NCBI RefSeq assembly: GCF_003287895.1
Contig: NZ_CP030280.1
Coordinates: 164,001-228,000, forward strand
DNA: 64,000 bases
Direction: 5' to 3'
From: Blautia argi
Lineage (GTDB): Bacteria; Bacillota; Clostridia; Lachnospirales; Lachnospiraceae
In this document: piece after piece, positions 625 to 21,025 of the stretch
How the letters are laid out: every line of letters starts with the position of its first letter
Numbering within the stretch: the first letter of the stretch is position 1
Made by a program: the position numbers and the translations under genes
The notes under the pieces: generated by a model
Database searches by the model: none
Told to the model about the DNA's origin: nothing
Seen by the model: the letters and a program-made list of their open reading frames with translations, nothing else

Positions 625-626
625 CA

Positions 627-3628: not shown

Positions 3629-3642
3629 TAGGAGAATTATTT

Positions 3643-4770: not shown

Positions 4771-5557
4771 AAAAGTAAGCGTTATAATGGGGATTTATAA
4801 TTGTGCTAATACGTTAGAGGAAGCTTTGGATTGTATTTTGAATCAAAGTTATACGAATTGGGAAGTTGTTATGTGTGATGACTGCTCATCAGATAATACG
4901 GCAGAGATAGCAGAACAATATGTAAAAAAATATCCGGGTAAGTTTATTTTATTAAAAAATCAAGAAAACCATGGATTAAATTATACACTTAATAAGTGTT
5001 TAAAAATTGCAACAGGAGAATATATTGCACGCATGGATGGAGATGATTTGTGTGCAAAAGAACGTTTTGAAAAAGAAATAAATGTATTGGAACAGAATAC
5101 AGAGATTGCAATTGTCAGTACAGATATGCACTTTTTTGACGAGAATGGCATTTGGGGAAAAACATATACCGAAGTATTCCCTACAAAGAAGAGCTTTTTG
5201 AAGGGGACACCATTTTGTCATGCGGCATGTATGGTAAGGAAGAAAGCTTACATAGATGTTGAAGGATATAGCGTGAGTGAGCGGTTGTTGCGAGTAGAAG
5301 ATTATCATCTCTGGATAAAAATGTATGCGAAAGGATATAGAGGAATGAATATACAGGAACCTCTATATTCTATGAGAGATGACAGAGAGGCACAAGGCCG
5401 AAGAAAATTTAAGTATAGATTGAATGAGGCATATGTAAAAGGATATGCAATCAAAGCGTTAAATTTGCAGAAATGGAATTATATTTGGTGTTTTAGACCA
5501 ATTATAATAGGATTGTTACCAGAGAATTTATATCGAATTCTCCATAGAAATAAGTAA
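4763..5557 (+). CDS. Glycosyltransferase family 2
   Basis: A 264-residue GT-A transferase. The N-terminus SVIMGIYNCANTLEEALDCI and CDDCSSDNT form the nucleotide-sugar site, and RMDGDD near residue 90 is the metal-binding DXD. HLWIKMY near residue 185 is the usual acceptor-side ED/W region. It overlaps the preceding GT4 by 8 bp, which implies coupled translation. It is an inverting transferase for the repeat unit; donor and acceptor are unknown. It is shorter than most GT2 genes in this cluster because it lacks the long C-terminal tail. Confidence 0.85.
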   Translation: MSKKVSVIMGIYNCANTLEEALDCILNQSYTNWEVVMCDDCSSDNTAEIAEQYVKKYPGKFILLKNQENHGLNYTLNKCLKIATGEYIARMDGDDLCAKERFEKEINVLEQNTEIAIVSTDMHFFDENGIWGKTYTEVFPTKKSFLKGTPFCHAACMVRKKAYIDVEGYSVSERLLRVEDYHLWIKMYAKGYRGMNIQEPLYSMRDDREAQGRRKFKYRLNEAYVKGYAIKALNLQKWNYIWCFRPIIIGLLPENLYRILHRNK

Positions 5558-5576
5558 CGTAGAGGGATATTAGATT

Positions 5577-6659
5577 ATGTTTGGTGGATATATTTTTATA
5601 TGGCTGATATTTGCAGGAATAGTACTGAAGCAAACAAAACTTTTTAATATTGAATATATAAATGGTATGAAGGTAAAACGTTGGAACTGGATAAGTGCAA
5701 CTATTTTATTTTTTCCAATATTTTGGTTAGCTTGTATGGGACCGGCGATTAATGATATTCCGGAATATCTTCGTGCATATAAAATTATTCCGTTGACAGT
5801 ATCTGATTTGGCAATTTATCTTTCAACCATGGATTCGGGTCAGGGGTTTGCAATTATAGAGTGGCTGATTAAGCTGGTGTTCGGGAATAATCTTACAGCA
5901 TTTCGAGTAATTATAGCCATAATTCATAGCGTTCCGGTTATTTTGATTTTTAAAAAGTATTCCGAGAGTTATTGGGTTACAATGTATTTGTTTGTAGCTT
6001 CGGCAACACATATTGGTTGGATGATGAATGGTCTTAGACAGTTTATCGCCGTAGTAATGATTTTAGCTGTCCTTCCATTAATGATAAAAAAGAAACATAT
6101 CCCAGTTCTTATTGTTGTTTTATTGGCATCAACAATACATATTTCCGCTTTATTTATGATTCCGATAGTTTTTATTGTACAAGGAAGTGCAGGAAACAAA
6201 AAAACAATGGGATTTATTGCTTTGGCCATAGTTGTTATGTTCATTCTAAGTAAAAATCCGGCATTGGCAGATATGTTTTTAGAAGGAACCGAATATGAAG
6301 GCGCTTTGACTGAAATGCAGAGAATGGGTGATGATGGGGTAAATCCAATTCGAGTTTTGGTAAGTGTAGTCCCGGTATTTTTGGCATTTCTACAAAGAAA
6401 GCGTATTGAAAGAGAAGAAAACCGGGTAATACATATTTGTGTAAACATGTCGGTTATTACTGTAGGTTTAAACCTTGTAGCAATGGTTACAAGTGGAATT
6501 TTGATGGGAAGAATGGCAATATATACAAGTTTGTATAGTTTCATTATTATGCCGTATTTGATAAGAAATGCATTTACAAAAGATTCGCAAAAGTTAGTTA
6601 ACATATTAATGATAGTGCTTTATTTTATTTATTATTGTTTTGAGATGGGTGTATTGTAA
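5577..6659 (+). CDS. EpsG-family polysaccharide polymerase (Wzy-like)
   Basis: A 360-residue membrane protein with about 9-10 hydrophobic segments. The phrases IPEYLRAYKI, ATHIGWMMNGLRQFIAVVMI and ASTIHISALFMIPI are characteristic of EpsG/O-antigen polymerases: a periplasm-side loop with an Arg-rich NGLRQ motif, and a His-rich HxSA motif. It would polymerise flipped repeat units outside the membrane. With the flippase at 12.8 kb it defines a Wzx/Wzy-dependent pathway. It starts 19 bp after the GT2 stop. Confidence 0.8.
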   Translation: MFGGYIFIWLIFAGIVLKQTKLFNIEYINGMKVKRWNWISATILFFPIFWLACMGPAINDIPEYLRAYKIIPLTVSDLAIYLSTMDSGQGFAIIEWLIKLVFGNNLTAFRVIIAIIHSVPVILIFKKYSESYWVTMYLFVASATHIGWMMNGLRQFIAVVMILAVLPLMIKKKHIPVLIVVLLASTIHISALFMIPIVFIVQGSAGNKKTMGFIALAIVVMFILSKNPALADMFLEGTEYEGALTEMQRMGDDGVNPIRVLVSVVPVFLAFLQRKRIEREENRVIHICVNMSVITVGLNLVAMVTSGILMGRMAIYTSLYSFIIMPYLIRNAFTKDSQKLVNILMIVLYFIYYCFEMGVL

Positions 6660-6668
6660 GGAGAGAAA

Positions 6669-7379
6669 ATGATTACCAAGATGATTCATTATTGTTGGTT
6701 TGGAGAAAAAGAAAAACCACAGATAGTAGAAAAGTGTATAAATAGCTGGAAAAAATTTTTTCCTGACTTTGAGATTATGGAGTGGAATGAAAAAAATTTC
6801 GATATTCATTATAATAAATATGTGGAAGAAGCATATAAAAGTGGGAAGTTCGCATTTGTTAGCGATGTTGCCAGATTCTATGCATTGGAAAAATTTGGTG
6901 GTATCTATTTTGACACAGATGTAGAAGTGGTAAAAGATTTTGGTGAATTATTAAATGATGAAGCATTTGCGGGATTTGAAACAGACGAATACGTTGCACC
7001 GGGTTTAGTACTTTGGGTAAAAGATAAACATAATGAGTTCATGCAGAAGATGTTGAAATATTATGAAGATTTATCATTTATAAACGAAGATGGCACATAC
7101 AATACGACAACGATATGTATTTATTTCACAGAACTTCTAAAACAGTACGGACTTGTAGGAAATGGAGAGAAGCAGAAGTGCGGAACATTTACCATATATC
7201 CGAAAGAGTATTTTTGTCCTTTTAATGACCAAACGGGAGTTTTGAAGAAGACAGAAAATACATATGCAATTCATTGGTATTCAAAAACATGGATGGAATC
7301 GAAACAGAAAATTAGAAATAAGATTACAAGGATTCTGCATAGATTTTTTGGGACAGATTGCTTTAGGAGATTTAGATAA
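6669..7379 (+). CDS. DXD sugar transferase (capsular polysaccharide synthesis, GT32-like)
   Basis: A 236-residue protein opening IHYCWFGEKEKPQIVEKCI and containing FAFVSDVARFYAL followed by GGIYFDTDVEV (DXD around residue 79). This is the pattern of the Gly_transf_sug/OCH1-like family that occurs widely in Firmicute capsule loci. The role is transfer of a sugar from a nucleotide donor using a divalent metal. It starts 9 bp after the polymerase and its final base overlaps the next ATG (TAATG), so the genes are tightly coupled. Confidence 0.82.
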   Translation: MITKMIHYCWFGEKEKPQIVEKCINSWKKFFPDFEIMEWNEKNFDIHYNKYVEEAYKSGKFAFVSDVARFYALEKFGGIYFDTDVEVVKDFGELLNDEAFAGFETDEYVAPGLVLWVKDKHNEFMQKMLKYYEDLSFINEDGTYNTTTICIYFTELLKQYGLVGNGEKQKCGTFTIYPKEYFCPFNDQTGVLKKTENTYAIHWYSKTWMESKQKIRNKITRILHRFFGTDCFRRFR

Positions 7380-8572
7380 TGAAAACACTATTGATTTTAT
7401 CGCATACAATGGAGTTGGGTGGAGCTGAGAGGAGTTTGTTAGGATTGCTCAATGCAATTGATCCAAAAGAATATTCCATTGATTTATTTTTAATGCGACA
7501 TGAAGGCAGTTTATTAGAGGATATTCCTAAGCATATAAATTTATTACCGGAAATACCGGCTTATACAGTTCTGGCAAGACCATTTAAGGATGTAATTAGA
7601 GAAAAACATTTTGTTTTAGCCGCAGCACGTCTTGTAGGAAAAATAAAAGCAGAACAATATGAAAAGCAAAAAAATATTGTAGATGGTGGTGTGGCATTAG
7701 AATATAGCCATAAATATACAAGCCCCTTTATGCCTAAAATTCAAGAACAAAAAAAATACGATATGGCAATTAGCTTTTTGACACCACACTATTTTGTGGA
7801 TAGAAAAGTAAAAGCAAAAAAGAAGATAGCCTGGATTCACACAGATTATTCAAAAGTTCAGATTGATGCAAAGTCAGAATTAAAAATGTGGTCAGCTTAT
7901 GATTGTATAGTATCCATTTCAGAAGCCGCAGCAAAAAGTTTTACAACAATTTTTCCAAGTTTGAGAGAAAAGGTATTAGTGATAGAAAATATATTACCGA
8001 TACAATTGATAAAAAAACAAATGAATGAGTTTGATGCTTTATCAGAAATGTCCGGGCAGGGGATAAAACTGCTGTCCATAGGAAGATACTGTAATGCAAA
8101 AAACTTTGATAATGTTCCAAATATTTGTTCGCATATTTTACAATTAGGAATTGATGTAACATGGTATATTATAGGGTTTGGCGGTGATGAAACGCTTATT
8201 AGAGCAAAAATTAAAGAAGAACATATGGAAAAGAATGTCATTCTTTTAGGCAAGAAAGAAAATCCATATCCTTATATGAAAGCTTGTGATGTGTATGTGC
8301 AACCAAGTCGATATGAAGGAAAAAGTGTGGCAGTTAGAGAGGCACAGTTATTAGGTAAACCAGTGGTTATTACGAATTATGCAACGGCGGATAGTCAGTT
8401 AGAAGATGGCGTGGACGGTATGATTGTGCCGTTGGAAAATGAGAAGTGTGCGTGTGCGATTGCCGAATTGTTAAAGGACAAATCAAAAATGGAGCAGCTG
8501 TCGCAGGCATGTGCCATAAGAGATTATTCAAATTATAAGGAAATAAAAAAGGTGTATGATTTGTTTGAATAA
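7379..8572 (+). CDS. Glycosyltransferase family 4
   Basis: A 397-residue GT-B transferase. HTMELGGAERSLLGLL at the N-terminus is the glycine-rich acceptor-side loop of many GT4 enzymes. KKIAWIHTDYSK lies mid-protein, and the C-terminal domain carries SIGRYCNAKN and an EX7E motif (Glu313 and Glu321 in EGKSVAVREAQ). It is translationally coupled to the DXD transferase through TAATG. Sugar specificity cannot be read. Confidence 0.85.
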   Translation: MKTLLILSHTMELGGAERSLLGLLNAIDPKEYSIDLFLMRHEGSLLEDIPKHINLLPEIPAYTVLARPFKDVIREKHFVLAAARLVGKIKAEQYEKQKNIVDGGVALEYSHKYTSPFMPKIQEQKKYDMAISFLTPHYFVDRKVKAKKKIAWIHTDYSKVQIDAKSELKMWSAYDCIVSISEAAAKSFTTIFPSLREKVLVIENILPIQLIKKQMNEFDALSEMSGQGIKLLSIGRYCNAKNFDNVPNICSHILQLGIDVTWYIIGFGGDETLIRAKIKEEHMEKNVILLGKKENPYPYMKACDVYVQPSRYEGKSVAVREAQLLGKPVVITNYATADSQLEDGVDGMIVPLENEKCACAIAELLKDKSKMEQLSQACAIRDYSNYKEIKKVYDLFE

Positions 8573-8584
8573 AAGAGGGAAAAA

Positions 8585-9583
8585 ATGTTGAAATTAAGTG
8601 TCATAGTTCCGGTTTATAAGGTGGAAAAATATCTTAGAAGATGTATAGACAGCATATTGGAACAAAATTATAGAGATATTGAATTGATACTTGTAGACGA
8701 CGGTTCACCGGATTGGTGCCCGGAGATGTGTGATCAGTATCAAAAAAAAGATAAAAGAGTAAGAGTAATTCATCAGAAAAATTCAGGAGTAGCAGTTGCA
8801 AGAAATGCCGGAATGAGAATGGCTACAGGAGATTATATTACTTTTGTAGATAGTGATGATTATATTGATAGAGAAATGTATGTATCTATGTTTGAAATTA
8901 TTGAACAATATCAGTGTGATGTTGTGATGTGTGATTGCGTAAAAGAATTTGGAACACACAAAGAATTATATACACATGATATTCGGAGTGGATATTATAA
9001 TGAAAAACAGTTAAAAGAAGAATACTATCCTCACTTATTAATGATGGAAAATGTAGAATATCCTGCAACGATTTCAAATTGGTTATGTGTATTTAAAAAT
9101 AAGAGGGGTGGAAAAGATTTTGCCATTGAATATGAACCGGGAATCCGCTATTCGGAGGACTTATTATTTGGAGCTCGATTGTTAAGACAGGCGGACTCGT
9201 TCTATTATATGAAAGGACAAGCATATTATCATTATTGTATGAACCCGGAATCTGTTACACATAAGTTTGTTCCAGATAAGTGGCAAGATTACCAGAAACT
9301 ACATAGAAAAATAGAAGAATATTTTGAGAATGATAAGACATTTGATTTTCAACATCAAATAGATTTATGCTTATTGTTCTTTTTGTATAATGCTGTAGGT
9401 GATATTTGGAGAGAACAAAGCCTAAATACACATGAAAAACGAAGAATGGTTTTAAATATCTTAAAAGACAACAAAGTGAAGAAAATGTTTAGGAGAATAA
9501 ATATATTTAAGCTACCGATTTCAAATAAATTAAAAGTGATAACATTACTTTATAAATATCAGTTTGTTTGGCTTTTTACTTAA
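8585..9583 (+). CDS. Glycosyltransferase family 2
   Basis: A 332-residue GT2 enzyme with SVIVPVYKVEKYLRRCIDSI at the start, LVDDGSPDWCPEMCD for donor binding, NSGVAVARNAGM and the DXD-type VDSDDYID near residue 90. RYSEDLLFGARLL near residue 200 is the catalytic ED region. This layout is typical of EpsJ/WfgS-like capsule transferases. It lies 12 bp after the GT4 and has a normal GT2 length with a helical tail. Confidence 0.87.
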   Translation: MLKLSVIVPVYKVEKYLRRCIDSILEQNYRDIELILVDDGSPDWCPEMCDQYQKKDKRVRVIHQKNSGVAVARNAGMRMATGDYITFVDSDDYIDREMYVSMFEIIEQYQCDVVMCDCVKEFGTHKELYTHDIRSGYYNEKQLKEEYYPHLLMMENVEYPATISNWLCVFKNKRGGKDFAIEYEPGIRYSEDLLFGARLLRQADSFYYMKGQAYYHYCMNPESVTHKFVPDKWQDYQKLHRKIEEYFENDKTFDFQHQIDLCLLFFLYNAVGDIWREQSLNTHEKRRMVLNILKDNKVKKMFRRINIFKLPISNKLKVITLLYKYQFVWLFT

Positions 9584-9620
9584 AAAGTAATTGAAATTCA
9601 AATAATAGAAAGATTATAAG

Positions 9621-10616
9621 ATGAAGAAAATAACAGTTATAATGCCTGTGTTCAACAAAGAAAAGTACGTAGAAGTGTCAATAAAATCAATTTTAAATCA
9701 AAGTTTACGTGAATTTGAGTTTATCATTATAGATGATGGCTCAGTAGACAAATCAGGGACTATTTGTGATAAATTTGCAGAAAAAGATAATCGAATTAAA
9801 GTGATTCATATTAAGAATAGTGGAGTATCAAATGCAAGAAATATAGGGCTTGATATGGCAGAAGGTCAATATATTACATTTATAGATGCGGATGATAAAA
9901 TCGATATAGAGTATTTGAGAAACTTATATGATTGTATTAGAACATCAAAGGCCGACATAGTAATTAGTGGGTATAAGAAAATATGGGAAGAATCGGATAG
10001 AATAGAGCCTGGAAAGATGAATGTACATGGCTTGGTAAATATGGTGGATATATTACCACGTTTTGCGGAATGGCAAAAGGAATCAGGTATTTTCGGTTAT
10101 TGTTGGGCAAAGATATTTCCCAGAGAATTATGTAAAGATATTTATTTTGATACTTCACTTCGGCTGGCTGAAGATTTTGATTTTTATTTAAAACTCTATA
10201 GAAAAATAAAAACAATTTATTTTGATGATGCTCAGAATTACTTATATCTGCAGGAGGCTGAAAATTCATCTGTGGCAAAAAATGACTATGATATAGACTA
10301 TATGGCTCAGTTGAAAATTAATTTGAGATATAAAGAATTTTTGGAGTATAAAAATGTGTTTTGTGATAGCAATAAAAGGATATTGACTGAAATAATCAGT
10401 AATTATTTTTATTTTTCCTTGTTTTATTGTGATATGTCACAGTTTAAAAATGTTTTTCAAAAATTATATAGCATATATAAAGAGATAAAAATAGAATTTG
10501 TAACGGAAAACATATTCTCTAAATGGTTATTATTTTTATTAAAAAATAATAGAGAAAGAGAAATAAGATATTCGATTAAGTTTTATAGAGCTATAAAAAA
10601 ATGCATTAGAATATAA
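9621..10616 (+). CDS. Glycosyltransferase family 2
   Basis: A 331-residue GT2 enzyme: ITVIMPVFNKEKYVEVSIKS, IIDDGSVDKSGTICDKF, NSGVSNARNIGL, and IDADDKID as the metal site near residue 90. LRLAEDFDFYLKLYR is the ED motif region. It is similar in plan to the genes before and after it, consistent with expansion of GT2 paralogues in this cluster. The C-terminal third is Lys/Ile/Phe-rich and probably associates with the membrane surface. Confidence 0.86.
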   Translation: MKKITVIMPVFNKEKYVEVSIKSILNQSLREFEFIIIDDGSVDKSGTICDKFAEKDNRIKVIHIKNSGVSNARNIGLDMAEGQYITFIDADDKIDIEYLRNLYDCIRTSKADIVISGYKKIWEESDRIEPGKMNVHGLVNMVDILPRFAEWQKESGIFGYCWAKIFPRELCKDIYFDTSLRLAEDFDFYLKLYRKIKTIYFDDAQNYLYLQEAENSSVAKNDYDIDYMAQLKINLRYKEFLEYKNVFCDSNKRILTEIISNYFYFSLFYCDMSQFKNVFQKLYSIYKEIKIEFVTENIFSKWLLFLLKNNREREIRYSIKFYRAIKKCIRI

Positions 10617-10660
10617 TGGTAATTATAGTACCTGTATAAAAGGTTGAAAGGATTTTAATA
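10616..10660 (+). pseudogene. Vestigial N-terminus of a GT2 gene
   Basis: An ATG overlapping the stop of the previous gene reads Met-Val-Ile-Ile-Val-Pro-Val, then a TAA stop, then Lys-Val-Glu-Arg-Ile-Leu. A GT2 N-terminus normally reads VIIVPVYKVEKYL, so the stop sits exactly where Tyr (TAT or TAC) is expected. I read this as a short leftover of a GT2 gene, perhaps the original 5' end before the present start at 10669 was supplied by recombination. The match is short, so chance cannot be excluded. Confidence 0.4.
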
Positions 10661-10668
10661 AAGGATAT

Positions 10669-11595
10669 ATGGAAAGAGAAACAGTATATAATCCTAGCAT
10701 TTCTGTTATTATTCCTGTATATAATACAGGAATTTTAGTATATAGAATGATAAAGTGTTTAGAGCAACAAACATTTCAGAATTTTGAAGTGATTCTTGTT
10801 AATGATGGAAGTACAGATGATTCACAAAATATATGTGAAAAAATAGTCAGAAATAAACCTAATTATTTTTTGTTTGCTCAAAACAATCAAGGGGCATTTG
10901 CAGCCAGAAATTTAGGACTGGAGAAGTCAAAAGGTCAATATATTGCTTTTTTGGATGCGGACGATGTGATTGATAAAAATTATTTAGAGGTTTTATTCAA
11001 ATACTGCAGGCATGCAGAAATTGCAGTTTGTGATATTGCGGTGTATAGAAAGAATATGGAAACTTTCCGATTTACGAGTAGTGACTCAAGGATAACACAA
11101 AGCCAGGCATTGAATAAATTACTTATTAGACAGGAAATAAATTCAGGTCCTTGTGGCAAATTATTTCAACGTAAAATTATCCAGGATATAAAATTTCCTC
11201 CATTAAGAGTATATGAAGATATTTTGTTTGTAATGGAGGCTTTTTGTAAAAGTAAACAGATAGCAATAACGAATGAAACAACATATTATTATATTCAGGA
11301 AGATACAGGTACAATGGGAAATAATCGGAAATCACCATCACTGGATATTGTTACAGCTACAGCAGAGATAATGAAGTTTATTACCAGTAGAAGTGATTTA
11401 GAAGCTAAATGCTTTTATATAACAATTTCTCATTTGTTTCAGTATGCATTACCGCTAACAATTAGCAATCAGTATAAAGAATGTGAGTTTACATGGAAAA
11501 CAAGAAAAACTTTACATAAAATATATGAAACAAATTTTAAAATGCAGTGCAATACCGTGGAAGGAGAAAGTATTATTTTATTTATATGCACATAA
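10669..11595 (+). CDS. Glycosyltransferase family 2 (possibly C-terminally altered)
   Basis: A 308-residue GT2 enzyme with ISVIIPVYNTGILVYRMIKC, LVNDGSTDDSQNICEK, NQGAFAARNLGL and the metal motif LDADDVID near residue 100. RVYEDILFVMEAF is the ED region. It ends VEGESIILFICT without the usual amphipathic tail and is about 20 residues shorter than its neighbours, so a late frameshift or truncation is possible. The start ATG has AAAGG a few bases upstream. Preceded by a vestigial GT2 start. Confidence 0.8.
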   Translation: MERETVYNPSISVIIPVYNTGILVYRMIKCLEQQTFQNFEVILVNDGSTDDSQNICEKIVRNKPNYFLFAQNNQGAFAARNLGLEKSKGQYIAFLDADDVIDKNYLEVLFKYCRHAEIAVCDIAVYRKNMETFRFTSSDSRITQSQALNKLLIRQEINSGPCGKLFQRKIIQDIKFPPLRVYEDILFVMEAFCKSKQIAITNETTYYYIQEDTGTMGNNRKSPSLDIVTATAEIMKFITSRSDLEAKCFYITISHLFQYALPLTISNQYKECEFTWKTRKTLHKIYETNFKMQCNTVEGESIILFICT

Positions 11596-11647
11596 TTGGG
11601 TTTATACAGATGGAAGAATAAAAAAGATAAAAGGGAGATGAAAGATC

Positions 11648-12811
11648 GTGAATAGAATATATATGTATGCCCATGGTGGAAGTGGAAATCATGGATGTGA
11701 AGCAATTGTACGCTCTACTTTGAAAATATTAGAAAATTTGGATGCGGAGAAAGAGTTATTTTCTACCCGACCAGAAGAAGATAAAAAATATGGGATTCAT
11801 AATCTATGTACTGTTATAGCAGAAAAAGAATCCTATTCAAAAAAAAGTCTGGCATTTGCTAAAGCCTATATGAGTTTGAAATTAAAAAATGATTATATGC
11901 CAATGGACAAATTAGATTATAGAAAAGCAATTTCAAAGGTACAAAAAGGTAATATTGCTTTGTCTATTGGAGGTGATAATTATTGTTATGCAGATAATAA
12001 GCGGTATACAATGCTTCAGGATTTGTTTTTGGAACGAGGGGCAAAAACTGTACTATGGGGTTGTTCTGTGGAGCCTGATTTGGTCAGAAAACCGGAAATT
12101 GCCAATGATTTAAAGCGTTATTCGTTGATTACAGCGAGAGAAACTATTTCTTATAATGCTTTAAAGTGTGTAAATCCAAATACCATTTTAGTTTCAGATC
12201 CGGCATTTATGTTAGATAGAAAAGAGGTTATTTTACCTAAAGAATTAGAAAATAAAGAATTTGTAGGAATTAATCTAAGTCCTATGATCGTAGAGAATGA
12301 ATCGAATAATGGTATAACGGTTAAAAATTATGAAAAATTAATAGAATATATTTTGGAACATACCAATTTAAGCATTATGTTAGTACCTCATGTAATTTGG
12401 GAGTTTAATGATGACAGAATTCCTCTGAAAAAACTTTATGAGAGATATAAAGAGTCAAAACGTATAGTTTTATTGGAAGACATGTCCTGCGAAAGAATAA
12501 AAGGTTATATTGCAAAGTGCAGATTTTTTATAGGAGCCAGAACTCATTCTACAATAGCTGCTTATTCTAGTTGTGTTCCGACATTGGTAGTCGGATATTC
12601 GGTGAAAGCGATTGGGATAGCTAGGGATTTGTTTGGAACAGAAGAAAATTATGTTATTCCGGTTCAAAATTTGCAAGGAGAAGAGGAAGTTTTGAATCAT
12701 TTTAAATGGCTTTGTGATAAAGAAAAAGAAATTAGAGAAAATTTAAGAAAGACAATGGAAAACTATAAAATGAGAGCTCTTCGTGCGTATGATGCAGTGA
12801 AAGGTCTTTAA
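11648..12811 (+). CDS. Polysaccharide pyruvyl transferase family protein
   Basis: A 387-residue protein starting at GTG 11648 after GGGAGATGAAAG. MYAHGGSGNHGCEAIVRS is the glycine-rich N-terminal loop of the pyruvyl transferase family (PF04230). GGDNYCYADN and the C-terminal RFFIGARTHSTIAAYSS are the other hallmark motifs. Members transfer pyruvate from phosphoenolpyruvate to a sugar, giving an acidic ketal, although several homologues do other chemistry. Here it would add negative charge to the repeat unit. Only 12 bp separate it from the flippase gene. Confidence 0.85.
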   Translation: MNRIYMYAHGGSGNHGCEAIVRSTLKILENLDAEKELFSTRPEEDKKYGIHNLCTVIAEKESYSKKSLAFAKAYMSLKLKNDYMPMDKLDYRKAISKVQKGNIALSIGGDNYCYADNKRYTMLQDLFLERGAKTVLWGCSVEPDLVRKPEIANDLKRYSLITARETISYNALKCVNPNTILVSDPAFMLDRKEVILPKELENKEFVGINLSPMIVENESNNGITVKNYEKLIEYILEHTNLSIMLVPHVIWEFNDDRIPLKKLYERYKESKRIVLLEDMSCERIKGYIAKCRFFIGARTHSTIAAYSSCVPTLVVGYSVKAIGIARDLFGTEENYVIPVQNLQGEEEVLNHFKWLCDKEKEIRENLRKTMENYKMRALRAYDAVKGL

Positions 12812-12823
12812 TGGGTAAAAGAT

Positions 12824-14356
12824 ATGACGTCAAGAAGTAAGTTTATAGCAAAAAATATTACATTTGGATACATATCCAATATTGTTGCATTAATTCTTAA
12901 TTTTGTTTCCAGAACAGTTTTTATTTATACATTAGGGGATTCTTATTTAGGAATCAGTGGACTTTTCGGCAATGTCCTTGGAATTTTGTCATTTGCAGAA
13001 TTAGGCATTGGAACAGCGATGAATTATGAATTGTATAAGCCCGTTGCAAACCATGATATTGAAAAAATAAAATCTTTAATGAATTTTTATAAGATTGCTT
13101 ATCGAGTTATAGCAACAGTTGTGGCAATAGTTGGGTTAGCAATTTGTCCTTTTTTAAAGTATATTATTCATGATAGCAACGGCGTTTTAAGAGGAAATGA
13201 AATTTATGTATATTACTTAATTTATTTGTTTAATACAGTCATTAGCTATTTTGTTACATACAAATTTAGTCTGGTAAATGCAGAACAAAAAAGTTATATA
13301 TTTACAATAATAAATTCAATTACTAATTTTTTAACAGTAACTTTTCAGATTGTTGTTTTATTACTTTTTAAAAATTTCCTTGTATATTTGTTAACGGCTT
13401 CTATTATAGGAGTTCTTCAAAAGATAGGTATTAGCCTTTATTTGCGTAAGTTATACCCATATCTTTTGGAAAAACCAGTTCAGAAATTAAGAAAAGAGGA
13501 ATTATCTCCGATCAAAAAGAATGTAAAGGCATTGATTATTCATAAGATAGGAGAAATCAGTGTGTATCAAACAGATAATATTATTATTTCAATGTTTGAA
13601 GGAATTAAAACGGTAGGATTAGTTTCAAACTATACATTGCTTATTTCTTCTGTAAAAGGATTTGTTGATATTATTTTTAATTCAGCTATTCCTAGTTTTG
13701 GAAATCTGATGGCGAATAGTGATGATGAAAGAAAATACGAACTTTTTCGTTGTTATAAGTTTTTGGGATTTTGGGTATATGGATTTTGCAGTATTGCGTT
13801 TGCAATTTTGGCATCTCCTTTCATCACTCTTTGGGTTGGGGAAAGTAGAACGATTAGTTATGGAACTGTGTTGCTTTTGATAGCTGATTTTTATTTAGTC
13901 GGACAGAGAATATGTATGAATAATGTAAAAGTTGCAGGAGGTGTTTTCTGGCAGGACAGATATGTGGCATTTTTACAGGCAATTGTTAATGTAGTAATAT
14001 CAATAGTTATGATTAAAAAAATTGGACTGCCAGGTGTATATGTGGGAACCATTGTACAAGGACTTATCAGTACTATTATAAAACCAATCATTGTTTATCG
14101 GGATTTATTTAAAGTAAAACCAAGTTTATATTTTAGACAAGGATTGGGAAACCTGTTAGTGACAATATTGGCAGGAGCGATTACTTATATTATTTCCAAT
14201 ACATGGTTAGCAGAAAGTACCATTTTAAATTTTATGATTCGAATGATTGTTGTTATTGTGATTCCTAATCTGACATTTATGCTTGTGTATTCAAGAACGA
14301 AAGAGTTTGCATATTTGAAAGGTACAATAACGAGAGTAATAAAAAGGAAGGTATAA
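12824..14356 (+). CDS. Wzx-like polysaccharide flippase
   Basis: A 510-residue membrane protein of the MATE-like polysaccharide transport family, with about 12-14 hydrophobic segments. ITFGYISNIVALILNFVSRT at the start, GLFGNVLGILSFAELGIGTA, and YQTDNIIISMFEG mid-protein are typical. It would translocate the undecaprenyl-linked repeat unit across the membrane for polymerisation by the EpsG-type protein. It starts 12 bp after the pyruvyl transferase and ends 2 bp before the next gene. Confidence 0.87.
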   Translation: MTSRSKFIAKNITFGYISNIVALILNFVSRTVFIYTLGDSYLGISGLFGNVLGILSFAELGIGTAMNYELYKPVANHDIEKIKSLMNFYKIAYRVIATVVAIVGLAICPFLKYIIHDSNGVLRGNEIYVYYLIYLFNTVISYFVTYKFSLVNAEQKSYIFTIINSITNFLTVTFQIVVLLLFKNFLVYLLTASIIGVLQKIGISLYLRKLYPYLLEKPVQKLRKEELSPIKKNVKALIIHKIGEISVYQTDNIIISMFEGIKTVGLVSNYTLLISSVKGFVDIIFNSAIPSFGNLMANSDDERKYELFRCYKFLGFWVYGFCSIAFAILASPFITLWVGESRTISYGTVLLLIADFYLVGQRICMNNVKVAGGVFWQDRYVAFLQAIVNVVISIVMIKKIGLPGVYVGTIVQGLISTIIKPIIVYRDLFKVKPSLYFRQGLGNLLVTILAGAITYIISNTWLAESTILNFMIRMIVVIVIPNLTFMLVYSRTKEFAYLKGTITRVIKRKV

Positions 14357-14358
14357 AT

Positions 14359-15327
14359 TTGAAAACAGGAAAACCATTAGTGAGTATTATTACTCCATGT
14401 TATAATGGAGAAAAGGTAATGCATCGTTTGCTGGATAGTATTTTATCACAGACATATAATAATATAGAGTTTATTTTAGTAAATGATGGTTCAACAGACC
14501 GTTCAGAGGAAATATGGTTTGAATACGAAAAGAAATTTAAAAGAAATGGAATAAAAACTATTTATATTTATCAGAGCAATCAAGGACTGGGAGCGGCAAT
14601 TAATGCAGGACTGAAAGTTTTTACCGGAGATTATTTGTGCTGGCCAGATATTGATGATTATTTTGAGGATACTTCAGTAGAAAAAAGAGTAAATTTTTTA
14701 GAAGCCCATAAGGAATATGGAAGTGTCAGTAGCGATGCAAATAAATATATAGAAGACAATTTGTCAGAACCAGTGGGAACAATGGCAAGTTGGATGAAAT
14801 ATAAAGAGGATGAGTGGCAATTTGAATGGATGTTAAAAGGGCAGTCTTTATTCTGTTCTGGCTGCCATATGCTTCGAACAACCAGTTTTTTAGATGTGAA
14901 TCCGGATAGATATATCTATCCGGCGAGAAGGGGACAAAACAACCAAATGTTGCTTCCGATTTATTATAAATATAAACATGGATTTATAGATGAGCCGCTT
15001 TATAATTATATTATATATGAGAAATCAATGTCTACGCCTGATACCACTCGAGAATCAATGTTGGACAGAATTAATGAATATATAGAAATGTTGATGTGGA
15101 CATTTAAACAAATTCCAATGGATGATAAAACAAAGAAGTTTTGTTTTGAGCATTTAAAAAAATTGCAGTGGGAAGACACATCTAAAATTTATGTTAAATA
15201 TGGGAACCCAATTAAGTTTATTAAATTATATTTTGAATTGAAAATATATAGAACAGATATGAAAAGGGAATTTAAAAACATAGTAGTATCAATAAAGCAA
15301 AAGTGGAGAAATAGAAAAATATGCTGA
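14359..15327 (+). CDS. Glycosyltransferase family 2 (first of a tandem pair)
   Basis: A 322-residue GT2 enzyme. I accept the TTG start at 14359 because AAGGAAGG lies about 8 bp upstream and no ATG is available. Motifs are VSIITPCYNGEKVMHRLLDS, LVNDGSTDRSEEIW, NQGLGAAINAGL and WPDIDDYF (DXD near residue 96). RRGQNNQMLLPIYYKYKHGF replaces the usual ED region. It is clearly paralogous to the next gene, which shares CYNGE, GAAMNAAL, DIDDL and YGQNLQLLLP at matching positions. It overlaps that gene by 7 bp. Confidence 0.85.
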   Translation: MKTGKPLVSIITPCYNGEKVMHRLLDSILSQTYNNIEFILVNDGSTDRSEEIWFEYEKKFKRNGIKTIYIYQSNQGLGAAINAGLKVFTGDYLCWPDIDDYFEDTSVEKRVNFLEAHKEYGSVSSDANKYIEDNLSEPVGTMASWMKYKEDEWQFEWMLKGQSLFCSGCHMLRTTSFLDVNPDRYIYPARRGQNNQMLLPIYYKYKHGFIDEPLYNYIIYEKSMSTPDTTRESMLDRINEYIEMLMWTFKQIPMDDKTKKFCFEHLKKLQWEDTSKIYVKYGNPIKFIKLYFELKIYRTDMKREFKNIVVSIKQKWRNRKIC

Positions 15328-16316
15328 ATAAAGACATAGTAAGCTTGATAATTCCCTGCTATAATGGGGAACAGTTTGTGGAAAGATGTATGAGAAATAT
15401 TCTGGAGCAGGATTATGTAAATAATATAGAGATGATTTTGATAAATGATGGTTCTACTGATAAGACAGAAGAAATTATTTTCCAAATGAAAGATATCCTA
15501 GATCAAAAATTATGGAAATTTTGTTACATCTATCAGAAAAATCAAGGAGTAGGAGCAGCAATGAATGCTGCATTAAAAAAGGTTACAGGGGAGTTTTTGA
15601 CCTCATTAGATATAGATGATTTAATGATGCCAAATTCTATTTCGGAAAGGGTTAAATGGTTAAAAAGGAATCCTTCGTATGCATTGGTGAGAACTAATGG
15701 ATATTTTTTATTTCCCGACAAAGTGAAAAAACTTTTTTATCCTGAAGATTATCAAGCTTCACCAGATATATTTCAGGATATTCTAAATGGGAAAATTTAT
15801 AATTGGGCAGGAACATATATGATCCGCACGGAAAAATGGCTGGAAAGATGTCCTTCAAGGGAAATTTACCCATCTAAATATGGTCAGAATTTGCAATTAC
15901 TTTTGCCGGCAGCGTATGGTAATAGAGGAGGGTACATACGTTTTCCACTGATGATGTATTATATACACGGAGAATCCATGACACATCAAAAAGATGAATA
16001 CGGAGAAAAAAGATTGAATAATACATATGGTTTCCAGGATATTTATATGCATGTTATCAAAGAGATATGCAAAGAAAATCAAAAATTAAGTATGTATGAA
16101 AAGATGATAATAGCCACATTTTCTAGGCGGAGAATAGAATTAGCGATTGAATTGAACGATAAAAATTTGTGTAAGCGAGCATATAAAGAATTGCAGGATA
16201 CAAAACTGCAAACAGAACAGGATAGAATTAGAATGTATATGTTTGTATCACCGATAAAAGGGATTTTTTTAAGAATAATACGGAAGCTTAGAGAAAAACA
16301 ACAAGAAATGTTTTAG
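15321..16316 (+). CDS. Glycosyltransferase family 2 (second of a tandem pair)
   Basis: A 331-residue GT2 enzyme, paralogue of the preceding gene. Motifs are VSLIIPCYNGEQFVERCMRN, LINDGSTDKTEEII, NQGVGAAMNAAL, LDIDDLMMP (metal site near residue 97) and KYGQNLQLLLPAAYG. Conserved order and spacing across the two proteins indicate a local gene duplication followed by divergence. The pair could add two successive sugars. It overlaps the upstream gene by 7 bp and sits 8 bp before an acyltransferase. Confidence 0.85.
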   Translation: MLNKDIVSLIIPCYNGEQFVERCMRNILEQDYVNNIEMILINDGSTDKTEEIIFQMKDILDQKLWKFCYIYQKNQGVGAAMNAALKKVTGEFLTSLDIDDLMMPNSISERVKWLKRNPSYALVRTNGYFLFPDKVKKLFYPEDYQASPDIFQDILNGKIYNWAGTYMIRTEKWLERCPSREIYPSKYGQNLQLLLPAAYGNRGGYIRFPLMMYYIHGESMTHQKDEYGEKRLNNTYGFQDIYMHVIKEICKENQKLSMYEKMIIATFSRRRIELAIELNDKNLCKRAYKELQDTKLQTEQDRIRMYMFVSPIKGIFLRIIRKLREKQQEMF

Positions 16317-16324
16317 AAGAGGGA

Positions 16325-17425
16325 ATGAAAATGAAAGAACCTATTATGAAAGTGAAACGTAATTACGGAATAGATATGCTCCGTTTAATAGCAATGTTTT
16401 TTGTTGTAATACTCCATGTATTAGGGCATGGTGGAGCAATGAAAAATGCAACGGGATATAACTATAATGTAAGTAGCCTTTTGTTAATAGTGGCATATTG
16501 TGCAGTAAATTGTTATGCCATTATCAGTGGATATGTTGGTTATAAAGAAGAAGGCAATTATCATTACACAAAATATTTGAAATTTTGGATTCCCGTTTTT
16601 TTCTATAGCGTGGGAATCACAATTATTTTTTATGTTATAAATTCCGGAAGTGTTGGTATTAAAGAGATTATATGGGCTTTTTTTCCTGTTACTACATATG
16701 AATATTGGTATGTGAATGCATATACGGCTTTATTTTTCTTAATACCGTGGATCAATAGATTAATACAAAATATTACTGAAAAAGAATTAAATAGATTGAT
16801 ATTTGTGCTGTTTATGGTTTTTTCTGTGTATCTGACATTTTCTACTTGGTTTGCAGATACATTTACACTCGGGGGGGGATATGATTTTGCCTGGCTTATA
16901 ATCTTATATATTGTAGGTGCATGGATAAAGAAAAATAGAATTAATGAAAAATGGCGTGTATCATCTTGGGGTATTATGATTACTATTTGTATAGCAGTAA
17001 CATGGCTGTGGGAAACATTTGCTCCGGTTGCTAAGCGGCTTTTTGTATCCTATATTAGTGTTACAATTGTTTTAATAGCAGTTGGAATGGTAGCAATATT
17101 TTCAAGACTTCAATTAAGTTCAAAAATGATTTCTATAGTACGTTTCTTTTCACCAGCAGCTTTTGGTGTTTACTTAATACATACACAGACTTGGGTATGG
17201 AGGGGACTTATATCTGATAGATTTTCTTGGATTGCAAATTATAAGACATATAGGATTCCTTTTATTGTAGTAGGATGTGCAGGCGGAATTTTTATAATAT
17301 GCCTTTTAATTGAAAAATTAAGACTTGTCTTGTTTGAAATTCTAAAAATCAATCGATTGATACAAATTTTGGAGAGAAGGTTGGATTCAGTATTGAATAA
17401 ATGCTTTAATAAAATTGGTGGATAA
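16325..17425 (+). CDS. Acyltransferase family 3 membrane protein, contains G8 tract
   Basis: A 366-residue membrane acyltransferase (OafA/AT3 type). YGIDMLRLIAMFFVVILHVL with the conserved Arg and His near residues 22-33 starts the fold, and VNAYTALFFLIPWINRLI and SPAAFGVYLIHTQTW follow; about ten hydrophobic segments. It would O-acylate, probably O-acetylate, a sugar of the polysaccharide. A run of eight G at 16871-16878 encodes part of Thr-Leu-Gly-Gly-Gly-Tyr. GGG glycine codons are otherwise rare in this AT-rich cluster, so a length change here would switch the gene off. In this assembly it is in frame. An upstream ATG at 16325 and an inner one at 16346 are both possible starts. Confidence 0.85.
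   Translation: MKMKEPIMKVKRNYGIDMLRLIAMFFVVILHVLGHGGAMKNATGYNYNVSSLLLIVAYCAVNCYAIISGYVGYKEEGNYHYTKYLKFWIPVFFYSVGITIIFYVINSGSVGIKEIIWAFFPVTTYEYWYVNAYTALFFLIPWINRLIQNITEKELNRLIFVLFMVFSVYLTFSTWFADTFTLGGGYDFAWLIILYIVGAWIKKNRINEKWRVSSWGIMITICIAVTWLWETFAPVAKRLFVSYISVTIVLIAVGMVAIFSRLQLSSKMISIVRFFSPAAFGVYLIHTQTWVWRGLISDRFSWIANYKTYRIPFIVVGCAGGIFIICLLIEKLRLVLFEILKINRLIQILERRLDSVLNKCFNKIGG
16871..16878 (+). repeat. G8 homopolymer inside acyltransferase gene (in-frame state)
   Basis: Eight consecutive G in an AT-rich coding region, spanning two GGG codons and the first two bases of a GGA codon. The gene stays open through it. Such runs are prone to slipped-strand length change. A second acyltransferase gene 2.6 kb downstream carries G9 at 19486-19494 and is out of frame. 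Confidence 0.85.
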
Positions 17426-17512
17426 AGAATGAAATAGTCGGAAGAAATTATTTTATCTAAAAAGTTGAGAAAAAATTATCAGTTACAAATAGAGAACTGG
17501 AGGGAGGTTTAT

Positions 17513-18442
17513 ATGAAGCCGATTTTAACCATACATACAGCAACATACAATCGTGCATATATTTTAGAGAAAGCATACCGTTCTTTACAAAAGCAGACGG
17601 TAATGAATTTTGAATGGTTAATTACAGACGATGGTTCTACTGATGGGACAGAAATATTAGTGGAAGGTTGGATAAAAGAAAACAATCCATTTCATATCAG
17701 ATACATTAAATTAAAACATGAGGGGCTGATTAGAGCTGTAAATCATGCAATTTCTATTGCAAATGGTAAATATTATTTTCGACTAGATTCGGACGATTGC
17801 TTACGTTTTGATGCAGTTGAGAAAATAGTTCAAAGGATAAATGAAATTGATGATAAAGAAGATTTTGTGGCAGTAGGGTTTGTTCGTGTCACAGAAGATG
17901 GGCAACCATTGAAAAAGGTATGGCCGAAAGTGAACGAAAAAGGATTTGTAGATTGCACTAATTTAGAACGGAAAAAGTATGATTTAGATGCAGATATGTG
18001 TGAAGCATATAAGACAGAAATTATGCAAAAGTATAAGTTTCCAGTATGGGAAGGTGAAATGTTTGCACCAGAGCAACTACAATCTGATAAATTAGCGATG
18101 TTGGGATACAAGATTCGCTGGTACAATGAAGGCATCTATATTTGTGAATATCAGGAAGAAGGGCTTACAAAAGGAAATTGGAATCTATTAAGAAAAAATA
18201 AGATGGGATATGCCATGTTGAGTAATATGCAGGTGTTAACTAATCAATGTTTTAAAGAGAAATTTAAAGCAGCAGGACAGCATATAGCTTTATCAATTGT
18301 GGCGGGATACCCATCCTATATTTTAAAGAGTAATAAAAGATGGCTTACTTTGTTAGCATTGCCTTACGGGATATTATTGAGTTTTAGACGGAGAGAGCAG
18401 TTTAAGTGGGATGACCCTGTAAACAAAAGAAACTTATCATAG
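17513..18442 (+). CDS. Glycosyltransferase family 2
   Basis: A 309-residue GT2 enzyme. I start it at ATG 17513, which has GGGAGG 6 bp upstream, rather than at the in-frame ATG 17465. Motifs are LTIHTATYNRAYILEKAYRS, ITDDGSTDGTEILVE, and RLDSDDCLRF (metal site near residue 92). MFAPEQLQSDKLAML and YICEYQEEGLTK place it with the family often annotated as WfeV/EpsE-like capsule transferases. It follows the acyltransferase after 87 bp with no obvious terminator. Confidence 0.84.
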   Translation: MKPILTIHTATYNRAYILEKAYRSLQKQTVMNFEWLITDDGSTDGTEILVEGWIKENNPFHIRYIKLKHEGLIRAVNHAISIANGKYYFRLDSDDCLRFDAVEKIVQRINEIDDKEDFVAVGFVRVTEDGQPLKKVWPKVNEKGFVDCTNLERKKYDLDADMCEAYKTEIMQKYKFPVWEGEMFAPEQLQSDKLAMLGYKIRWYNEGIYICEYQEEGLTKGNWNLLRKNKMGYAMLSNMQVLTNQCFKEKFKAAGQHIALSIVAGYPSYILKSNKRWLTLLALPYGILLSFRRREQFKWDDPVNKRNLS

Positions 18443-18453
18443 ATGATAAGTTT
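18430..18453 (+). repeat. Perfect 11-bp hairpin across the GT2 stop codon
   Basis: AAACTTATCAT and ATGATAAGTTT are separated by 2 bp, giving an 11-bp perfect stem that includes the stop codon at 18440-18442. No T-run follows directly, so it is more likely an mRNA processing or stability element than a strong terminator. The next gene starts 60 bp downstream. Confidence 0.5.
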
Positions 18454-18513
18454 AGCTTTAAGATTTATGAATTGTATAAAATAATCGAAATAAAGTGAAA
18501 AGGTTATAGGACT

Positions 18514-19284
18514 ATGGAAAATAAGAAAAATTCAACTCCTTTGTTATTGACTGGAACGATTGATTCCAGTGTTTATAATAATACAGGAAATATTATTCAA
18601 AATGTAGCAGAGAGATTAAATCAATATGAATCACCTATTGAAAAATATATTAGTTCAACACCTTTTGATATAATCGTGTTTATAGAAAATTCTGGATATG
18701 CATTTGATGAGTTAAAATATAAAAAGTTAGCTAAAATTTATGGTAAAGAGTTTGAGTTTATACCAGGGAAAATTTGCAAAGATGAAATATTAGCACATGG
18801 GAAAAGTTTTGGAGATGCTTATCTTATTGCTGAAGCACTTGAAAAGAGTAGTTTGTTAGCCAATGTGGAATTTTTTTATAAAATATCAGGTAGAATATAT
18901 TTAAAAAATGCAAAAAGTATTTTAAGAACTAAGAATAAATATAGAAATGAATTTATTATGTATCAAGGAAAGAAATGGTGTTTCACTAATATCTTTAAAG
19001 CAAACAAAGAAGATTATTTATCGGTATTAAATGATGTATATTTAGATTGTGATGAAATTTCCGTAAATGACATTGAAATTTCATTTTTTAACAGACTTTG
19101 TACATCGGATATTTCAATGGGTTCATTCTATACATATCCGTATTTTGAAGGGAAAATGGGTGCAACTGGAGAGAATTATAGTGGTCGATTAGTAGAAAGG
19201 ATAATACGTAATATAATGGCCAGACTACATTTTTTTACGAAAGATTCTTTGACTTCAAAATTATTAGCAAAAATAATACATTAG
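18514..19284 (+). CDS. Hypothetical protein, polysaccharide cluster; glycosyltransferase-like pattern
   Basis: A 256-residue soluble protein I do not firmly recognise. It starts with MENKKNSTPLLLTGTIDSSV, has FDIIVFIENSGYAF, the phrase FYKISGRIYLKNA near residue 125 and DVYLDCDEISVNDIEISFFN. The KISGR phrase recurs in uncharacterised capsule-cluster proteins that may be GT-A transferases, but no convincing DXD is visible. Position between a GT2 and an acyltransferase supports a role in sugar transfer or modification. Its base composition matches the rest of the cluster. Confidence 0.5.
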   Translation: MENKKNSTPLLLTGTIDSSVYNNTGNIIQNVAERLNQYESPIEKYISSTPFDIIVFIENSGYAFDELKYKKLAKIYGKEFEFIPGKICKDEILAHGKSFGDAYLIAEALEKSSLLANVEFFYKISGRIYLKNAKSILRTKNKYRNEFIMYQGKKWCFTNIFKANKEDYLSVLNDVYLDCDEISVNDIEISFFNRLCTSDISMGSFYTYPYFEGKMGATGENYSGRLVERIIRNIMARLHFFTKDSLTSKLLAKIIH

Positions 19285-19365
19285 TTTTTCAAAATGAATT
19301 CCATTAATAGAAGATTATAAAAAACAGAATAGATATCTAAAAATAAATTTGAGTGTATGGAGAAA

Positions 19366-20393
19366 ATGAAATTAAATAGAAATGAAACAAAACGCTTACA
19401 AGGAATCGCAATCCTATTTATGCTGGGACTTCACTTATTCAATAGAAGTGATATTGCTGATTTCTATGATGTAAATTTATACTTAGGGGGGGGGTGCCTC
19501 TTTTAACCCACATATCCTACATATTTGATGCCTGTGTTCCTATTTATCTTTTTTGCAGTGGATATGGTCTGTACAGAAGTGAGGAATCAGGCAGCAGCAT
19601 GAAGAAGAGAGTTCAGAGAATTTTGAAATTGTTGATTCGTTTCTGGATTATCATGATTCTTACCTGTTGCGTAGGATATGCTCTTGGAATGAAGGAGAGA
19701 TTTCCGGGAAGCCTTTTGAATTTTATTTTGAATGTATGTCTGATTAAAAACAGCTATGTGGGAGCATTCTGGTTTGTACAGACCTATACTATATTGGCGT
19801 TGTTATCCGGGGGTATCTTTAAATGGATTAGAAAGTATTCCTATTGGATTATCTTGCCAATTTCCTTTGTACTTTATATTAGCGCATTTGGAATGGAATA
19901 TTTAGTTTTGGGACGAATTGACATGGAAGTATTAGGACTTCTGTTAAATGCCCTGATGCTTTTCTTACGTTCACAGTTTTCCTTTGTGGTGGGAATGATT
20001 TTGGCAAAAGAAGATATACTGGAACATTGTAAATTCTTATCAAAAATCAGAAAGAATCCGATATTGCCGTGGCTATTTTTGATACTTATAATTATAGTGA
20101 GAGCAAATTTACGCCATATGATATTTGCACCGTTTTCTGCATTTGCGTTAATTGTGTTGTTTGGAACGTATCATTGGGGAAAAGCCGGAGAAAAAACACT
20201 GTTGTTCTTTGGTAAACATTCCACCAACATGTGGCTGACACACATGCAGTTTTATATGATATTTACGCCCACTTTAGTATTTGCCTCAAGAAATGTGTTT
20301 GTGATTATGTTGACTCTTGTGGGGCTGTCATTGGCAGCGTCTTATGTGGTAGACTGGATTTATACTATACTGCAAAAGAAAATACCAATCTGA
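19366..20393 (+). pseudogene. Membrane acyltransferase, frameshifted at a G9 tract (probable phase-variable OFF state)
   Basis: ATG 19366 opens a frame reading MKLNRNETKRLQGIAILFML, the standard N-terminus of an acyltransferase-3 or fucose-4-O-acetylase-like protein. It runs into nine G at 19486-19494 and stops 9 bp later (TAA at 19504). The rest of the protein continues in the -1 frame from 19494: VPLLTHISYIFDACVPIYLF, the Arg-rich loop, and FGKHSTNMWLTHMQFYMIF near the end. Inserting one G, or deleting two, restores a protein of about 342 residues. Either the gene is in an OFF phase or the base count is wrong in the assembly. It would acylate the polysaccharide, like the paralogous gene at 16325. 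Confidence 0.8.
19486..19494 (+). repeat. G9 homopolymer at acyltransferase frameshift
   Basis: Nine consecutive G located exactly where the two halves of one acyltransferase lie in different frames. Ten G (or seven) would join MKLNRNETK to the downstream frame through Gly codons. This is the expected form of a slipped-strand contingency tract. Confidence 0.85.
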
Positions 20394-20431: not shown

Positions 20432-21025
20432 ATGAATGAGTTATGGGCGAATTTTTTGGGATATTTATCGCTATATAGAAGTTATATTATTCCGGTTTTC
20501 GTATTGGGAATTTTCCTCACAGCCATAGTTTGGGTTTTGATGAAAAAACGCAGTACAAAGTATACAGAAAATCCTTTCAGAACTTTATTTTGCAGCTGTG
20601 TTCTTTCTCTTTCTGTTGCAGTAATTATAATTATGACACTTTATGGGCGGACTCAGGGAACAGAGTTCGCCTTTCGCCTTCGCTTGTTTGGTTCGTATAT
20701 AGAAGCCTTTGGCAATAAGAACATAGAGATTCTGCTTCAAATTATTATGAATATCGTGATGTTTGTTCCTGTTGGTCTTTTTTTGCCCTGTTGCTTTCAG
20801 AAGTTTGAGAAAAATCGTTTTGTACTTTTGGGGGCGTTAATTTTATCAGGAACTATTGAACTAATCCAGGGCATAACAAAAATAGGAATGTTTGAGTTTG
20901 ATGATATTCTGGGAAATGTACTGGGGGCAGAGATTGGATTTGGGATTTATTGGATATTGAGCAGAAGTTTCAGGAAGGTAAAATTGGGAAGAAGAGGAAA
21001 CTCAAATGAGAAAAATAAAAGTTGA
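20432..21025 (+). CDS. VanZ-like family membrane protein
   Basis: A 197-residue membrane protein with five hydrophobic segments. The C-terminal half contains NIVMFVPVGLFLPCCF, SGTIELIQGI and FEFDDILGNVLGAEIGFGIY, which together define the VanZ-like family. Function of the family is poorly known; it was named for low-level teicoplanin resistance and other members sit beside cell-envelope genes. It starts 38 bp after the acyltransferase with a GAGGGAGAA ribosome-binding site, and is the last gene of the polysaccharide cluster or the first of the flanking core. Confidence 0.82.
   Translation: MNELWANFLGYLSLYRSYIIPVFVLGIFLTAIVWVLMKKRSTKYTENPFRTLFCSCVLSLSVAVIIIMTLYGRTQGTEFAFRLRLFGSYIEAFGNKNIEILLQIIMNIVMFVPVGLFLPCCFQKFEKNRFVLLGALILSGTIELIQGITKIGMFEFDDILGNVLGAEIGFGIYWILSRSFRKVKLGRRGNSNEKNKS

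Follow-up and report, generated by a model that had tools for sequence, protein, structure and literature searches.

Invertible DNA is the better known route to phase variation in gut commensals, and gut Bacteroides diversify their surfaces by means of DNA invertases. Slippage-based phase variation has mostly been studied in pathogens, a gut commensal case being a Bifidobacterium pilus (PMC9187656). The closest systems are described here as far as the available text of the cited reports goes. In the sortase pili of Bifidobacterium breve, an intragenic G tract (G9 to G12) separates two ORFs, which are fused by replication slippage (PMC9187656). Neisseria meningitidis pglI is a phase-variable O-acetyltransferase of surface glycosylation whose repeat length differs between paired isolates (PMC5445459), and oafA of Haemophilus influenzae confers phase-variable lipooligosaccharide acetylation with, according to a review, an effect on antibody production (PMC11868660). 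In Campylobacter, G/C homopolymers make surface genes phase variable (PMC6321876, PMC8355987). Both the mechanism, i.e., switching by poly-G slippage as in Campylobacter and Neisseria, and the use of O-acetyltransferases as phase-variable genes are already known. By contrast, the host group considered here is apparently undescribed in this respect. In the open-licence literature we found no report of slipped-strand mispairing in Blautia; a search combining slipped-strand mispairing with Lachnospiraceae returned a single match, which in its available text deals with AB5 toxins and C. jejuni (PMC6437147), and the available portion of a paper on frame transitions names neither Blautia nor Ruminococcus (PMC3711429). 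A preliminary description of the locus had called such switching little described in Lachnospiraceae, which fits this literature, no such case being among the matches listed.

The locus studied here resembles the B. breve pili in that an intragenic G tract splits two ORFs in a gut commensal (PMC9187656, available text). It differs from them in that mixed tract lengths were found there in a one-colony culture by deep sequencing, whereas here the variation lies between strains and is read from predicted proteins, and in that the former is a Bifidobacterium pilus gene and the latter a predicted polysaccharide acyltransferase of Lachnospiraceae (PMC9187656, available text). With pglI it would share the character of a phase-variable O-acetyltransferase, although pglI acts in Gram-negative protein glycosylation (PMC5445459, available text), and with oafA the ON/OFF acetylation of a surface glycan, although the oafA envelope differs (PMC11868660, available text). 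The window, i.e., the whole 64,000-nucleotide stretch of Blautia argi DNA that was analyzed, contains the following features around the split gene.

13-19284, plus strand: surface-polysaccharide cluster (Pfam and ORFs, with Pfam run on part of the ORFs)
5577-6659, plus strand: EpsG-family protein (Pfam), presumably with a Wzy-like role
11648-12811, plus strand: pyruvyl transferase (Pfam)
12824-14356, plus strand: 510-aa protein without a Pfam match, predicted to be flippase-like
19357-19506, plus strand: 5' part of the acyltransferase gene, including TM1 (ATG at 19357 or 19366, TAA at 19504-19506; 40-residue identity to P0002)
19486-19494, plus strand: G9 tract, proposed switch, coding for a loop between TM1 and TM2 (sequence; length variation among relatives; P0002 model)
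19494-20393, plus strand: 3' part of the acyltransferase gene, PF01757 (299-aa open frame from GTG 19494; P0001, P0002)
20432-21025, plus strand: VanZ-like gene, 3' of the acyltransferase (PF04892)

In addition to the EpsG-family protein, the pyruvyl transferase and the flippase-like protein, the cluster encodes ATP-grasp, GT2/GT4 glycosyltransferase and Caps_synth proteins. The split acyltransferase gene is its last member and is followed by the VanZ-like gene. This context points to acyl transfer onto a surface polysaccharide as the predicted activity. A 256-aa protein at 18514-19284, between a glycosyltransferase and the acyltransferase, belongs to no Pfam family.

Direct reading of the sequence places the G9 tract inside the PF01757 acyltransferase gene. 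The upstream frame enters the tract and terminates 46 codons past ATG 19366, and the downstream frame remains open to its end, the 3' half alone scoring 49 bits for PF01757 and thus passing the gathering threshold of 31. An intact database protein, P0002 (344 aa), also has this domain. The 40 residues preceding the tract are identical to its residues 4-43 (40/40), and of the 298 positions compared in the 3' half all but three agree with it (295/298). As both halves match this intact protein, they constitute one gene. All of the alignment-invariant residues 3' of the tract are retained (60/60), the 3' half has no additional stop codon, and no damage to the gene is apparent outside the tract. 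The division into two frames meeting at the nine G, put forward in the preliminary description, was thereby confirmed, both halves being otherwise intact. The Pfam domain is probably the same as that of pglI; the repeat of oafA is of another type than the poly-G present here.

The tract begins at codon 44 (P0002 numbering), and its length sets the reading frame. The three frames past the tract lead to three different products, all of which occur in nature. We consider it highly probable, from comparison of sequences, that the tract is a poly-G contingency locus, i.e., a translational phase-variation switch in a predicted surface-polysaccharide O-acyltransferase. The G run would gain or lose bases through slippage at replication; one of the three length classes would be read through to yield a membrane acyltransferase of ~344 residues, and in the remaining two translation would stop shortly past the tract (OFF). 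The window copy would be OFF. Ten or seven G had previously been named as the restoring lengths, and the intact copies described below do belong to that length class.

The mere presence of the run is only mildly unexpected. Under an order-3 Markov model of the window, 0.63 runs of at least 9 are expected per Mb, or ~0.04 per window, and the whole genome (3,297,975 bases) has six runs of at least 8, two of which sit 2.6 kb apart in this cluster. G 7-mers number five in the window against 3.54 expected, a count reached by 25 of 100 shuffles. An excess of G runs over chance was dropped as an argument, since neither the 7-mer shuffles nor the Markov expectation shows one. The real evidence is the variation in length between strains.

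To follow this variation, relatives were collected at the DNA and protein levels. No close DNA copy of the gene was found outside the window's own genome in searches of genome contigs, viral contigs and whole genomes, the last comprising 61 relatives (E 1e-3), 397 genomes of the family (1e-40), 20 of the genus (1e-30), 392 of the order (1e-50) and 398 of the phylum (1e-50); four weak matches (L011-L014) and a contig-end match (L016) were left aside. The gene thus seems to be strain-variable and, as close copies were lacking, the frames of the alleles were deduced from predicted proteins instead of allele DNA. When 5.8 billion proteins were searched with the 3' half, 139 relatives were obtained, the best 120 of which were used; with the 5' half as query, the matches listed included 25 free N-terminal fragments. 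The 40 closest proteins comprised 23 of full length (340-354 aa, P0002-P0024), 15 tails without an N-terminus and two cut otherwise (P0036, P0037). The tail P0001 starts at the GTG of the tract, ten tails start at the Met of an MKKR-like motif 3' of it, P0034, P0038 and P0039 start at a Met 18 residues beyond that one, and P0040 starts still later; these labels depend on gene calling, and contig edges may account for a few of them. Separately, P0036 and P0044 lose the frame at a similar site near the C-terminus, before an HSTNMW motif, which represents either a second break-prone site or errors.

Within the window's lineage, the intact frame (P0002) is listed on 18 contigs and a second, broken frame (P0121, P0122 and P0123) on 57, 3 and 1 contigs, these counts being the database's own, in which one strain may be counted repeatedly. 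P0121 and P0122 differ from P0123 in their number of glycines, indicating two broken tract lengths (60 and 1 contigs). The third frame after the tract is that of the window's G9, a further broken length. If the tract consists of G throughout, the lengths in this lineage would be 5, 7, 8 and 9, with one intact class and two broken ones.

These frequencies bear on the possibility that the split is a sequencing or assembly error, with the true tract intact and a homopolymer miscounted. The window comes from a single complete assembly, homopolymers are prone to errors, and the window's own third-frame form was absent among the 25 N-terminal fragments listed; moreover, pseudogenes are tabulated at 2.06% for B. 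argi KCTC 15426 in the available text of that report (PMC8103633). Nevertheless, broken forms occupy 61 listed contigs of the window's lineage (57+3+1) and many in other lineages, beside the 18 intact ones, and their tails are identical or nearly so to those of intact forms. Error is an unlikely source of such frequencies at one site, although it could still alter the exact G count of the window, and we regard it as a very improbable explanation of the locus.

At least three other lineages contain both intact and broken forms whose tails are identical or nearly so. Over 263 aa, the tail P0026 (77 contigs) shows no difference from the full-length proteins P0008 (104 contigs; its name comes from Coprococcus phoceensis) and P0009 (13 contigs), the tail P0034 differs from full-length P0004 at one of 247 residues, and the tail P0031 differs from full-length P0013 at two of 265. 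The N-terminal fragment P0132 and the tail P0034 share a longest contig of 85,821 bases, which would be expected if the two halves lie together on one contig. Near-identical predicted copies in several lineages therefore differ in frame at the tract, as changes in tract length would produce. The variability of the tract in relatives, which the preliminary description had left to such a comparison, was borne out: a fixed tract across related strains was not seen, and proteins of the same and sister lineages imply several lengths.

For each of the 25 N-terminal fragments we also asked whether one DNA could encode its tail and, in a shifted frame, an intact relative, using 29 full-length proteins. 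Thirteen of the 25 were compatible with a shift at the glycine tract, by +1 nt in nine fragments and by -2 nt in four, and with shuffled tails each of these 13 gave 0/87. Most of them fit 17 of the 29 intact relatives, as the region is conserved; the frame shift is thus demonstrated, the exact partner not always. The closest partners, identical upstream, were P0002 for P0121-P0123, P0009 for P0124, P0005 for P0126, P0018 for P0128, P0004 for P0132, and P0013 for both P0138 and P0140. The fits of P0134, P0136 and P0141 were weak and were matched by shuffled controls too (5, 5 and 16 of 87, respectively). The remaining nine of the 25 were unexplained by a tract shift in this test. One of them, P0139, is broken by a 10-nt deletion farther along and not by the tract; the other eight (P0127, P0130, P0133, P0135, P0137, P0143, P0144 and P0145) include some with short tails resembling that of the window and others that are deletion-like, and certain tails could stem from contig edges or gene calling.

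A tree was built from 38 of the 40 closest proteins (23 full-length, 15 tails), omitting P0036, the C-terminus of which is cut, and P0037, which has an odd N-terminus. On this tree the intact/broken label changes 12 times, at least nine of the changes being forced by well-supported branches, and it clusters no more strongly than a shuffled label (shuffled mean 11.9; 316 of 500 as low). The state follows no lineage, and its 12 unclustered changes indicate that it turns over faster than lineages diverge. Such alternation between the two states argues against an ordinary pseudogene, i.e., a one-off frameshift in a gene that is now decaying, as do the complete set of 60 invariant residues, the lack of any further stop in the 3' half and the association of both states with identical or near-identical tails. 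A pseudogene would agree with the fact that two of the three length classes are broken and that broken forms outnumber intact ones in the window's lineage (61 vs 18 listed contigs); on balance we hold it to be less probable still than an assembly error.

The position of the tract was examined on a structural model of P0002 (mean pLDDT 83.3, pTM 0.86). It maps near the 5' end of the gene, to a loop between helices 8-25 and 48-76 that is predicted with low confidence (mean pLDDT 53 for residues 31-40 and 67 for residues 41-50). Among relatives this loop varies in both sequence and length, and added glycines would therefore probably be tolerated. The best fold matches in the PDB were weak, none reaching 0.001: 8jkv (E 0.010), whose title says no more than 'membrane proteins', and the human transmembrane acetyltransferase HGSNAT (E 0.014-0.042). 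No PDB sequence matched at E 0.01.

From its sequence, the broken gene would give a short peptide from its N-terminus and, beyond that, no more than a TM1-less protein. The latter could arise from an internal start, the G run serving as the ribosome-binding site for GTG 19494; alternatively, the full protein could be made by productive frameshifting without a change in DNA, through transcriptional slippage or ribosomal frameshifting, with the tract tuning the dose. RNA polymerase can slip on long G runs, and the open GTG start does overlap the end of the tract. Against an internal start, the TM1-less product would be missing 14 alignment-invariant residues, including H26; against frameshifting, a full single frame occurs in nature (P0002) with other tract lengths, which means that the length varies in the DNA. 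Frameshifting and phase variation are compatible with each other. Taken as the explanation of the locus, frameshifting or an internal start appears to us the least probable of those considered, and a phase-variation switch remains our preferred reading.

A second tract lies in a neighboring gene of the same Pfam family, 2.6 kb upstream of the split gene. Its G8 is additional to what the preliminary description had covered.

16325-17425, plus strand: second PF01757 acyltransferase, 366 aa, intact here (ORF, Pfam)
16871-16878, plus strand: G8 tract at codons 183-185 of the second acyltransferase, candidate switch (sequence; P0147 and P0245 broken there)

In the window the G8 is in frame. P0147, from the same lineage (2 contigs), has one difference in the 181 residues downstream of the G8 and joins a different upstream frame to the same downstream frame, indicating that its tract differs in length. 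In a sister lineage, P0245 exits the frame directly past the glycines and P0146 reads through, with one difference between them in the preceding 181 residues. These predicted proteins show the second acyltransferase repeating the pattern of the first, and such pairing of acyltransferase tracts is new within the literature covered. The second tract may switch independently of the first, which would allow up to four decoration states.

To place these tracts in a wider context, G/C runs were surveyed in the genus. Runs of at least 9 totaled 43, in 15 of the 20 genus genomes, and three of them belong to the window's genome. Whole phasomes have been described in Campylobacter (PMC6321876, PMC8355987, available text), whereas the picture here consists of 0 to 7 such runs per genome in 20 genomes, from sequence only. 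In ~70 Mb, 43 runs are not above the Markov expectation of 0.6-0.9 per Mb. Frames were inspected around all 43 runs and around three runs of 8 in the window's genome, and Pfam was applied to 30 open frames at or beside tracts, including L045, L004 and L005 of the window's genome; 21 of the 30 matched.

The gene survey covers the 40 runs of the other genomes, and the runs reported here are in or just before recognizable genes. A PF01757 acyltransferase (L035) has an in-frame G10 (L035:1501-1510) shortly past its apparent first membrane helix, hexapeptide acetyltransferases lie at two runs (L059, L066), and in two genomes a run (G10, G9) stands directly upstream of CpsB/CapC capsule genes (L026, L028). 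AraC-type or response regulators are found at L022, L025, L027, L029, L031 and L062, and by likeness at L054 and L057; among the AraC-family regulators, L025 and L057 (C9 and C11) are both frame-shifted, and L031 and L054 (C11 and C11) are both in frame. Solute-binding lipoprotein genes of three genus members (L024 by Pfam, L047 and L061 by likeness) carry G10, G9 and G10, respectively, shortly past the lipobox, and the frame changes at the run in all three. Two seemingly orthologous sets thus differ in run length, L025/L057 (9, 11) and L024/L047/L061 (10, 9, 10). Other runs are at non-surface genes, i.e., a short-chain dehydrogenase (L051), an alpha/beta hydrolase (L058), a GGDEF protein (L063), an Hsp70-like gene (L030), a phosphodiesterase (L053) and an FrhB-like protein (L060), which counts against a pure surface-gene reading, and many are intergenic or within unknown frames. 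Twenty control positions, hand-picked at round coordinates in six genomes, gave one polysaccharide gene (Bac_transf), no acyltransferase or AraC gene and five positions without a Pfam match; this control is too small and insufficiently random to allow a claim of enrichment.

Three loci of the window's own genome deserve separate mention. At L045 (C1:2158226-2158234, minus strand), a G9 terminates 13 nt upstream of the ATG of a GT4 glycosyltransferase. The run lies near the expected ribosome-binding site, overlaps an inverted repeat and could tune translation. The G8 of L005 (C1:377236) falls in the overlap of two short frames, of 61 and 68 residues, which may represent a small split gene or stem from an error in the assembly. 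We rejected the view that each G8 in this genome acts as a switch: in L004 (C1:249512), a BTAD-type regulator with a G8 that was judged by eye against its relatives L091 and L093, the frame is still correct when it reaches the run, and the break comes farther 3'.

We tentatively entertain a genus-wide poly-G phasome in Blautia, while leaning slightly against it: a few runs per genome would switch various genes independently, their targets being capsule acylation (two acyltransferases here, in four combinations), capsule operon leaders, glycosyltransferases, lipoprotein transporters and AraC-type regulators. As the number of runs is not above the Markov expectation, this is a lead and not a result.

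With regard to the acyltransferase locus itself, the differences in frame between near-identical copies point to slippage as their cause. Switching would then take place within one clone, so that single cells would differ in acylation; the group transferred to the polysaccharide of this cluster would be an O-acyl, probably acetyl, group, and the benefit may be bet-hedging against phages or immunity. If true, switching of an acyltransferase in so abundant a Lachnospiraceae genus would give a strain several surface chemistries, which matters for resistance to phages, for recognition by the immune system and for the tracking of strains, and a phasome, if true, would be a means of surface diversity without DNA invertases. 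Some of the 'pseudogenes' at G runs in such genomes and in metagenome assemblies may be switches.
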